A stretch of 24,239 nt of DNA, taken from a virus. Positions 4,511-21,674 of this stretch are shown here, piece by piece. The first letter of the stretch is position 1, and every line of letters starts with the position of its first letter. The notes under the pieces are model-generated. The model was not told the DNA's origin, made no database searches, and was given only the letters and a program-made list of their open reading frames with translations. Where the stretch lies: positions 1 to 24,239 of the IMG/VR virus record IMGVR_UViG_3300047476_001372. One strand, 5' to 3'. Both the position numbers and the translations under genes were made by a program.

Positions 4511-4516
4511 AATTTA

Positions 4517-4655
4517 GTCAGGGTGGCGAAATGGTAGACGCTTTGTAAAGGTTCATTCGGAGAGATTAATTACCTTGAAGATTGATTTTACCCTGAGAAA
4601 GGACTTTATAAGATAGGTTGCAAACTAATACAGGTATCGAATCCTGTCCCTGACT
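4517..4655 (+). tRNA. tRNA-like gene (Leu-type 5' half) with interrupted anticodon loop
   Basis: The acceptor arms GTCAGGG (4517-4523) and CCCTGAC (4648-4654) pair over 7 bp. The D arm TGGCGAAATGGTAGACGC matches leucine-type tRNAs. The T arm is ACAGG/CCTGT (4630-4634/4643-4647), with an 8-nt loop TATCGAAT instead of 7. CCA is not encoded. TTGTA (4543-4547) pairs with TGCAA (4619-4623) as the anticodon stem, leaving 71 nt where 7 are expected, an extra 64 nt or so. No clear U33 or anticodon can be assigned, and the long variable arm expected of tRNA-Leu is absent. It could be an intron-containing tRNA, a decayed tRNA or a tRNA mimic. Confidence 0.5.
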
Positions 4656-4672
4656 ACTAAAAATTAAATGTT

Positions 4673-11418: not shown

Positions 11419-11677
11419 ACAACAGACAGCAGTAGAATGGTTTTTTGATACATTGGTTGAAAAGGGGTATATTAAAAAATTGCCCATAGCCGAATATCAT
11501 GAAGCCAAAGAGATCGAGAAGGAACAACACGGTAACACTTGGATTTATGGCAGGATTGAGTGTCGTTGTGATGTTTATTTGGGTAAGGAGAAAACAGTTG
11601 TTCCTTCTCGATCTCTTTGGTTTCATGATATTCGGCTATTTGAGCAATACTACAACGAAACATATGGAAAAGAATAA
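11408..11677 (+). CDS. Paralog of TAVDWL-family protein carrying a 43-bp inverted repeat
   Basis: This 89-residue protein begins MENKQQTAVEWFFDTLVEKG and ends LFEQYYNETYGKE, the same ends as the upstream gene. Between them lies AKEIEKEQ, expected of the family, followed by 23 residues of spacer and a segment (VVPSRSLWFHDIRL) encoded by the reverse complement of the upstream arm. The central part is therefore not family sequence. The gene may be functional, phase-variable or damaged; the frame is intact. Confidence 0.6.
   Translation: MENKQQTAVEWFFDTLVEKGYIKKLPIAEYHEAKEIEKEQHGNTWIYGRIECRCDVYLGKEKTVVPSRSLWFHDIRLFEQYYNETYGKE
11486..11639 (+). repeat. 43-bp near-perfect inverted repeat with 68-bp spacer
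   Basis: The left arm 11486-11528 and right arm 11597-11639 are reverse complements over 43 bp with one difference (G at 11504 opposite T), which is a G·U pair in RNA. The spacer is 11529-11596. It lies wholly within the coding region of the 89-residue protein. Such a structure could be an inversion substrate or a very stable RNA hairpin. Confidence 0.95.
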
Positions 11678-19995: not shown

Positions 19996-20000
19996 AAAGC

Positions 20001-20042
20001 ATGGCAAGTAAATTAATTGGAATCGTAGGAAGCACTGATTAA
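20001..20042 (+). pseudogene. Remnant 5' end of the Sak4-like ATPase gene
   Basis: The short ORF reads MASKLIGIVGSTD and stops. The intact gene at 21003 begins MSSKLIGIVGNTGTGKST. The remnant carries the operon's standard leader (AAAACTAGAA then ATG), also found before the genes at 21694 and 23629, while the copy at 21003 lacks it. This points to the remnant as the original gene start, cut at the P-loop codons by insertion of the homing endonuclease. The two copies differ at most synonymous positions. Confidence 0.8.
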
Positions 20043-20056
20043 CAATATTTTAACTT

Positions 20057-20103
20057 TTCATATAGTAATTTTATTAAAAAAATTAATAATTTTACTATAT
20101 GAA
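20057..20103 (+). promoter_or_regulatory. Hairpin sequestering the endonuclease start codon
   Basis: Positions 20057-20075 pair with 20085-20103 over 19 positions (two central mismatches, 9-nt A-rich loop). The ATG of the endonuclease gene (20099-20101) lies entirely in the right arm. In T4, hairpins over the translation start of homing-endonuclease genes such as I-TevI limit early translation; this looks like the same strategy. It was folded by eye. Confidence 0.7.
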
Positions 20104-20998
20104 TATTAATATATATTGTTTGTATGACCCTGTATCTTGTAAAATAAGATATATAGGAAGAACGAGAAAACCTTTACATATTAGATTAATAGAACATATT
20201 ACTAAATCTCGTTATTATAACAAATATTTTCCTGGTAAAAATCCCCCTTATAAAGTAAATTGGATAAATTCTCTTTTGCAAAAAGGAATTGAACCAAAAA
20301 TTAAAAAACTAACTGAAATAAAAGGTTGGAAAGAATCACATTTATTTGAAAAAATGTTGATTGATAAATATAAAACCAAACTCAATTTAGTTAATTTACA
20401 AGATAGGGGACAAGGATCTAACAGCAAGATTGTTTCAGTGTTTACAAAAGAACTAATAAGTAAAACTTTAAAAGAAAAATATAAGAATAATGAAATAAGA
20501 AAAAAAGTAGTTCCTATATATACATTTGATAAATTAGGGAATTTTATTAAGAAGTACGAAAGTATTACGCTAGCAGCAGAAGATTTGCAAGTTTCAAAAA
20601 AAGTTATAATAAGTAAAATTAAAACTGGTAAAAGTATAAATAAGATTTTTGTGTCAAAAACTTCTAATTTATGTTTAGAGAATCATCTTTATATTTATAA
20701 TTATATTTCAAAACAAGTAATGTTATTTGATACTAAATTAGAAATACTTGATTTTTTAAAAATTTCAGATTTTATTTATACAGGTTTGAATAAAACTAAA
20801 AAAATAAAAAATGAGTGGATAGTTAATTCTAAAAATCCTAATTTAGAAAAACAAAATATAGTTTTATACAAAGACGGTAATGTTTATAGTTTTGATTGTG
20901 TAAAAAGTGCAGCTGCTCATATAGGATGCGTAATATATGCAGTTTATGATTTACTAAAAGGAAGAACTAACTCTGTTTACGGTTATAAAACAAAATAA
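20099..20998 (+). mobile_element. GIY-YIG homing endonuclease gene with NUMOD-like repeats
   Basis: This 299-residue protein has an N-terminal GIY-YIG domain: IYCLYD (IYC, 5-7), IRYIGRT (YIG, 18-20), IRLIEH (R29) and LFEKMLI (E84, catalytic Glu position). Three NUMOD1-like DNA-binding segments follow: VPIYTFDKLGNFIKKYESIT with LAAEDLQVSKKVI, then VMLFDTKLEILDFLKIS, then VLYKDGNVYSFDCVKSAAAH. The gene is more AT-rich than its neighbours, which supports recent transfer. It is free-standing and sits between the ATPase remnant and the intact ATPase gene. Confidence 0.88.
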
Positions 20999-21002
20999 AA
21001 AA

Positions 21003-21674
21003 ATGAGTTCAAAACTAATAGGCATTGTAGGAAATACAGGCACTGGAAAGTCAACATCTATCAAATCCCTGGACCCCAAAGAAACCTACATCATCAATGT
21101 AGCCAAGAAAGAACTTCCTTTCAAGGGCTCAGAGAAGATGTACAATCAGGAGAGCAGGAATTACAAAGAGGTGGATGAAATTACAGAAATCACTCGTTTG
21201 CTCAAAACCATTTCAGAAAAAGCTGAACACATCAAAAATGTAATCATTGAAGACAGTAATTACATGATGGCTTTTCGTATGGCTGAAAAAGCAACAGAAG
21301 TGGGATTTACAAAGTTCACCATTCTTGCAAAGGATATGGTGGATCTTTTCAGGGAAGCTCGTAAGCTTAGAGATGATTTGAAAGTTTTCTATTTCACTCA
21401 CCCTGAGACTATTGAAGATGCAGGAGAGATAGTGGGATATAAGATGAAGACATCTGGCAAGATGTTGGACAATCAGATAACATTGGAAGGATTGTTCACA
21501 ATATGTCTTTACACTCTCGTGGAAGAAAATAAGGATGGATCAGCAAGTTATAACTTTGTCACCAATAGGTACAAGAAATATCCTGCAAAGAGTCCAGATG
21601 GTATGTTCGATGAAATTAAAATCCCTAACAATCTTCAGATTGTAGTGGATAAGATTGATGAGTATTATAATTAA
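21003..21674 (+). CDS. Sak4-like RecA-fold ATPase (AAA_24 type)
   Basis: This 223-residue ATPase has Walker A GNTGTGKST (10-18) and Walker B NVIIEDS (79-85), with LKVFYFTHPE as a likely sensor strand and LFTICLYTLVEE later. This architecture fits phage Sak4/AAA_24 proteins, which act with SSB in single-strand annealing recombination. The 5' end appears replaced: an older start remains at 20001, separated by the homing endonuclease. The gene starts 4 nt after the endonuclease stop and precedes the SSB gene. Confidence 0.8.
   Translation: MSSKLIGIVGNTGTGKSTSIKSLDPKETYIINVAKKELPFKGSEKMYNQESRNYKEVDEITEITRLLKTISEKAEHIKNVIIEDSNYMMAFRMAEKATEVGFTKFTILAKDMVDLFREARKLRDDLKVFYFTHPETIEDAGEIVGYKMKTSGKMLDNQITLEGLFTICLYTLVEENKDGSASYNFVTNRYKKYPAKSPDGMFDEIKIPNNLQIVVDKIDEYYN

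Follow-up and report, generated by a model that had tools for sequence, protein, structure and literature searches.

A tRNA-like element between two phage genes and a family of candidate intergenic RNA processing marks

In mitochondria, tRNAs located at the borders of genes in polycistronic RNA are cut out of it and the mRNAs are thereby released, which is known as tRNA punctuation. The phage elements described here are likewise tRNA-shaped units at gene borders, with cutting proposed, but they cannot decode and many of them are only about 42 nt long. Another incomplete tRNA, the tRNA-like domain of tmRNA, keeps the acceptor and the T arm, has a reduced D region and lacks the anticodon arm. 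The phage elements share with it the retained acceptor and T arm and the missing anticodon arm, but no tmRNA (i.e., tRNA-like ends combined with a tag reading frame) was found by ARAGORN or cmscan in the window, the whole stretch of DNA analysed here, which is a virus record of 24,239 bases. The form of tmRNA, the properties of RNase Z and the requirement of tRNAs for U33 are used in this work as general background.

RNase P cleaves model hairpin substrates and also mRNAs such as that of T4 gene 32 (PMC11143913). The short phage elements have the same parts as these hairpins, an acceptor stem, a T stem and a T loop, in an mRNA context, and differ from the hairpins, as the cited part of that work presents them, in being a natural recurrent family located at gene junctions with fixed spacing. 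Hammerhead ribozymes occur in phage intergenic regions and in polycistronic RNAs, including a position 13 nt before the start codon in haloviruses HF1 and HF2 (PMC3088659). The hammerhead-like motifs reported below, for which self-cleavage is predicted, also lie shortly before start codons, but, in contrast to what the cited sections of that study describe, they share their type of gap and leader length with tRNA-like elements of the same loci. Finally, theta ribozymes, which are HDV-like, adjoin phage tRNAs and are postulated to trim real tRNAs (PMC10879173). Both there and here phage RNA processing would combine tRNA and ribozyme, but in our case the tRNA-like element and the hammerhead-like motif are in separate gaps, which sets them apart from theta ribozymes as far as the cited part of that report goes. 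The tRNA shape as a processing mark is a known principle, and a demonstration of cutting would add to the novelty of the combined system.

The phage and the intergenic element

The window phage encodes a family B DNA polymerase, helicases, Sak4 and a primase. Its primase matched 133 named phage records, the best among the matches listed being gut phages such as cr115_1 and cr10_1, with others named CrAssphage, and because of these matches the phage is probably crAss-like, an assignment made by sequence similarity and not by a tree. The whole window had no megablast match among named phages, four weak matches to the window region were found there, and 37 relative loci were collected with one window protein.

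Two further places in the window are recorded as separate observations. Positions 11486-11639 form a near-perfect long inverted repeat, where an Rfam microRNA match stays below cut-off; since both repeat arms correspond to one stretch of another phage record, G002, in both orientations, this is probably an inverted duplication within a small gene. In the region 20000-21040, an ORF directly upstream of the Sak4 gene carries a motif by which we take it to resemble a GIY-YIG endonuclease, and ahead of this ORF, near 20000, is a short sequence similar to the beginning of the Sak4 gene; together these suggest a homing insertion.

The element itself occupies the gap between two small ORFs of the same strand (Table 1). 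Its acceptor stem has seven pairs, with a possible eighth, A-U, at 4516/4655, and is stacked on the T stem with its T loop, giving 7+5 pairs (8+5 when 4516/4655 is counted). The D arm and the T arm are 88 nt apart. The predicted fold is better in energy than 196 of 200 shuffles (z -2.30), a clear but not an extreme value. In the window, a strict scan for an acceptor stem with a T arm found no site but this element, and a looser one added six other sites, which have no D arm of its kind. Applied to a large set of phage loci, the strict scan yielded 33 matches in 1.68 Mb, a total that includes overlapping loci and some repeated matches, compared with one match in a shuffled copy; this and the other shuffled controls are single copies, except for the five sets of the gap closing-helix comparison below. 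An intrinsic terminator was considered as well and rejected: there is no plus-strand hairpin with a T run, and one weak site is on the minus strand.

Table 1. Features of the tRNA-like element and its neighbours in the window
Feature	Positions	Strand	Remark
Upstream small ORF, 48 aa	4364..4510	+	stop codon 4508-4510, 6 nt before element
Whole tRNA-like intergenic element	4516..4655	+	4516-4654 identical in G001 and G002
Acceptor stem, 5' strand GTCAGGG	4517..4523	+	
D arm, Leu-type, GG at 4533-4534	4525..4542	+	
Long imperfect hairpin replacing the anticodon arm	4543..4611	+	minimum-energy fold
Variable region with one weak predicted 3-bp hairpin (4614-4627)	4612..4629	+	fold
T arm, 5-bp stem, 8-nt loop TATCGAAT	4630..4647	+	
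Acceptor stem, 3' strand CCCTGAC	4648..4654	+	
18-nt leader from acceptor stem to next ATG	4655..4672	+	would become the 5' leader after 3'-side cutting
Downstream small ORF, 57 aa	4673..4846	+	no PHROGs match

Decoding, introns and the long forms

The sequence-only reading had called the acceptor, D and T arms convincing, the D arm leucine-type and the T loop eight bases long, and the window sequence and its fold bear this out: all three arms are intact, and the T loop TATCGAAT exceeds by one base the seven of a usual tRNA. It had also reported that the only pairing for an anticodon stem encloses 71 nt and that no anticodon loop is visible. Such a pairing can indeed be drawn, at 4542-4546/4621-4625, but it encloses 74 nt, and the minimum-energy fold prefers the hairpin at 4543-4611. 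The anticodon loop is missing as described: the window element offers at most three of five anticodon-stem pairs and lacks U33, so that it does not have the 5-bp stem, 7-nt loop and U33 of a functional tRNA. Two tRNA-Trp controls gave five and four pairs in the same test, both with U33.

Elements with the same acceptor sequence but other middles were found in further phages, and none of ten such elements has a five-pair stem with a 7-nt loop in place. Two of the ten reach four pairs, and one of the two also has U33 and thereby matches the weaker tRNA-Trp control; in one of the ten, an AGTCAGG-framed element, the T loop is absent. Among the nine elements with a T arm the stretch from the D arm to the T arm varies from 28 to 102 nt. 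In G002, five tRNA-like units are packed in 1.4 kb, mostly with small ORFs between them, and their arms agree while their middles differ, with extra bases in the D loop of one. ARAGORN gave these same-acceptor elements conflicting names (Leu for a G002 unit, Tyr, Pyl, undetermined), which is expected in the reading that we favour because selection would keep the top half only.

These elements bear on the possibility that the locus encodes a tRNA from which a small intron is removed by splicing. The arms do fit a tRNA and the stem enclosing 74 nt can be drawn, but neither drawable anticodon-type stem, read from the sequence, leaves U33, and the extra bases vary in length and in place among elements with the same arms. 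ARAGORN called no tRNA in the window, and the covariance-model check that the sequence-only reading proposed (cmscan up to E 5) returned six matches, none of which is a tRNA, an intron or a tmRNA. No group I core was found by the Rfam intron model in that search; group I introns are far larger than the extra stretch of this element, and we know of no bulge-helix-bulge intron enzyme in bacteria. We regard splicing as extremely improbable. A tRNA with a small insert and a decayed intron, both suggested earlier, fare no better, since the middles range over the lengths given above, the additional bases of one G002 element are in its D loop, and no parent form turned up that lacks the interruption and has a proper anticodon arm. 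Free variation apart from the arms, which the sequence-only reading had named as evidence against itself, is nearly what the related elements present. Its suggestion of a tRNA mimic seen by host enzymes is the one that fits best, but as a processing mark within mRNA, and its interpretation as a whole is partly supported. The tRNA-like element at 4516-4655 is real, though it is neither a working tRNA nor an intron-bearing one.

A 25-base pattern from the 5' end of the element matched two viral stretches, twice in each; these belong to records G001 and G002, apparently the same phage. In both, 139 nt are identical to the window element, which there lies between different genes. The block of similarity between the window and G002 spans 4516-4668, with differing flanks outside it. 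Six other stretches are common to the region and the window at 83-94% identity, which means that genes have been exchanged between the window phage (35% GC) and G002 (43-47% GC in its pieces). The 5' flank of the window copy resembles the 5' flank of a different G002 element, and this similarity suggests recombination at these elements.

tRNA genes come and go in phage genomes, and the element could be a former tRNA-Leu with a degenerated lower half and no present function, as its Leu-like D arm and the neighbouring G002 unit called tRNA-Leu would have it. Decay, however, leaves unexplained the intact arms and the perfect acceptor pairing, the identity of 139 nt between phages that otherwise share stretches at 83-94%, the presence of several such elements in many phages and the spacing of 6 nt on one side and 18 nt on the other, and we consider it improbable.

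In the window's relatives, a loose acceptor/T-arm scan gave mostly chance-like AT-rich matches, and those weak tRNA-model matches that were examined are tmRNAs, tRNA calls or noise. As separate observations, ARAGORN called a tmRNA in all five of the relatives L053, L054, L055, L057 and L064, and the three searched with Rfam (L053, L054, L055) each had a tmRNA above cut-off; these are apparent tmRNA genes. tRNA-like units with odd D/anticodon regions are present in G033, a relative of the window phage (L052 1501-1568 and L060 1501-1563), and another, with an odd D or anticodon region, in L069 (1176-1259).

The short form and its position between genes

A minihelix of about 42 nt was found in G002 and in relatives recruited by a primase/helicase, a search from which 80 of 143 loci were kept; the best named relatives of this protein include Bacteroidota phages. 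The minihelix consists of a 7-8 bp acceptor stem, a linker usually with ATGGT, a T stem of 5-6 bp and a loop TTCRANN. There are 40 distinct minihelices in 2.07 Mb of loci, some of them overlapping, and none in a shuffled copy. In their alignment, for which the register of one sequence (L165) was corrected and six were lengthened at both ends by a single base, both sides change in 12 of 13 pairs, 94.7% of the cells pair and the covariation score is 0.742, compared with 0.149 when shuffled and at most 0.187 when slid. The T-loop sequence and the GG of the linker are kept, and many minihelices stack 13 pairs, not 12.

The exact minihelix pattern matched 22 viral-contig stretches and had no match in genome contigs, which contain five distant protein relatives. 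The minihelix covariance model matched 24 of 47 phage records, up to eight times each; eleven of the 47 had been recruited by the pattern itself and all match, as do 13 of the other 36. Among 34 sources the model gave four matches, all in one piece of G002 (L068), and it matched neither the window nor any of the 29 loci searched among the window's 37 relative loci. One minihelix compared with named phages produced weak partial matches in 20 records. Rfam identified no family for these elements in the window, in G002 or in gap regions of several of these phages, except for tRNA matches to some long forms. Searches by title and beginning of abstract in one open-access library, a scope that leaves aside subscription papers and preprints, brought up no paper on intergenic tRNA-like minihelices of phages.

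For 26 of the 40 minihelices the distance to an ORF-opening ATG downstream is 17-20 nt, mostly 18-20 nt, compared with 283 of 10,000 random positions. On the upstream side, 33 of the 40 have a stop codon that ends an open stretch, at a distance of -8 to +18 nt. Of random positions, 8.5% combine a stop no farther than 30 nt away with an ATG no farther than 50 nt away. The window element, 6 nt after a stop and 18 nt before an ATG, has the same constant stop-to-start placement on the same strand as the short form. Placement is looser in the other long forms (ATG gaps in nt, n=13 including the window: 18, 24, 18, 32, none, 40, none, 86, 14, 16, 15, 17 and 2).

Hammerhead-like motifs, other RNAs and the proposed processing

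The gap of one such phage reads CTGATGAG...GAAAC, and a motif scan found seven distinct sequences with the type I hammerhead core CUGANGA / GAAA / UH and three stems, compared with none in a shuffled copy. Their predicted cleavage sites lie 19, 19, 22, 19, 19, 19 and 20 nt before an ATG, taken as the first one downstream whether or not it opens an ORF. Motif and minihelix occur together, in separate gaps, in five loci (L084, L086, L174, L182 and L191); one of the motifs is at 12088-12139 of L191. Rfam support for hammerheads is weak, with one of three recognised in the searched stretch at 17.6 bits against a cut-off of 48.5. The leader length that the motifs and the minihelices have in common is the best indirect sign of cut junctions.

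The sharing of this type of gap by hammerhead-like motifs would be unexpected if the element acted in trans as a decoy, binding or blocking a host tRNA enzyme or a tRNA-cutting defence nuclease. Mimicry of the top half of a tRNA without decoding is what a decoy might use, but a fixed position between stop and ATG is needless for action in trans and an anticodon-reading nuclease would find no anticodon, so that a decoy seems to us very improbable.

A closing helix is present in 188 of 339 distinct gaps of these phages, and its end lies 19 nt before an ATG in 18 gaps, compared with 12 across five shuffled sets together. In many gaps the same outer helix surrounds other interiors without a T loop; the set of such frames (n=113) includes the same element in two registers, and tallies of the GAACTG...CAGTTC and GTCAGG...CCTGAC frames are unusable as numbers since these outer strands are each other's complements and both strands were counted. 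One class in the same stop-to-ATG frame (alignment A2; for example, L189:1138-1183:-) is about 46 nt long and has the outer helix GAACTG..CAGTTC and a hairpin loop that is often AGCGATA or AGCGAAA. In 18 aligned sequences of this class both sides change in 10 of 15 pairs, with a covariation score of 0.539 compared with 0.141 when shuffled, and no Rfam match was found for it in the searched loci. It is possibly a new ribozyme or a processing site. Since RNAs without a T loop share the outer helix and the leader, T-loop recognition is not the whole story, and these RNAs may be new ribozymes or else be cut in some other way.

Such interiors also agree with a structured insulator, in which the outer helix matters and not tRNA mimicry, and which would, with no specific cutting, uncouple the translation of neighbouring genes, shield mRNA ends or position the initiating ribosome. 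The fixed distance of about 19 nt to the ATG could equally mark the edge of that ribosome. An insulator leaves unexplained, however, the T-loop sequence and linker GG of the minihelices, the D arm of the long forms and the hammerhead-like motifs, and we hold it to be rather unlikely.

We favour, with moderate confidence, the reading of the element as a tRNA-like punctuation mark between genes, at which host RNase P and/or RNase Z would cut and so separate the messages. It would be a non-decoding RNA derived from a tRNA, placed in the gap between two same-strand genes. Environmental phages would carry a family of such intergenic marks, of which it is the long form and the minihelix the short form. 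The short form is close to a minimal RNase P substrate; a D arm and an arbitrary middle are what the long form has in addition. The features kept, i.e., the acceptor/T-stem stack, the T loop and the GG of the D loop, would be those read by bacterial tRNA-processing enzymes, and the lower half could be free in form because the element never decodes. If the phage transcript runs through the element, host RNase P could cut it on the 5' side and/or RNase Z on the 3' side; as the distance to the ATG is constant, the 3' border would be the important cut, which would favour RNase Z. Cutting would separate the neighbouring messages and provide the next gene with a short leader, of 18 nt in the window. 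The 139-nt copy, the elements with the same arms and varying middles, the covariation of the minihelices, the spacing and the hammerhead-like motifs in such gaps speak for punctuation. Against it stand the RNAs without a T loop in the same frame, the 8-nt T loop of the window element, the 13-pair stacks of minihelices, the loose spacing of long forms, the blank result of the minihelix model in the window and the weak Rfam support for hammerheads.

A broader proposal is more tentative, and we would put it at somewhat under an even chance: a group of environmental phages, probably of Bacteroidota, splits long messages by interchangeable RNA marks located about 19 nt before start codons. These would be tRNA mimics, either enlarged or miniature, at which host RNase P or RNase Z cuts, self-cutting hammerheads and at least one further covarying class, maybe an undescribed ribozyme. 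The marks would pass from one phage to another, as indicated by the identical copy that the crAss-like window phage has. A natural minihelix family that is close to the classic RNase P substrate and shares phage gene borders with self-cleaving ribozymes would make tRNA punctuation testable outside organelles. Such a family would also explain some of the 'broken' tRNA predictions in phages, and it is a source of compact processing sites and of candidates for new ribozymes.
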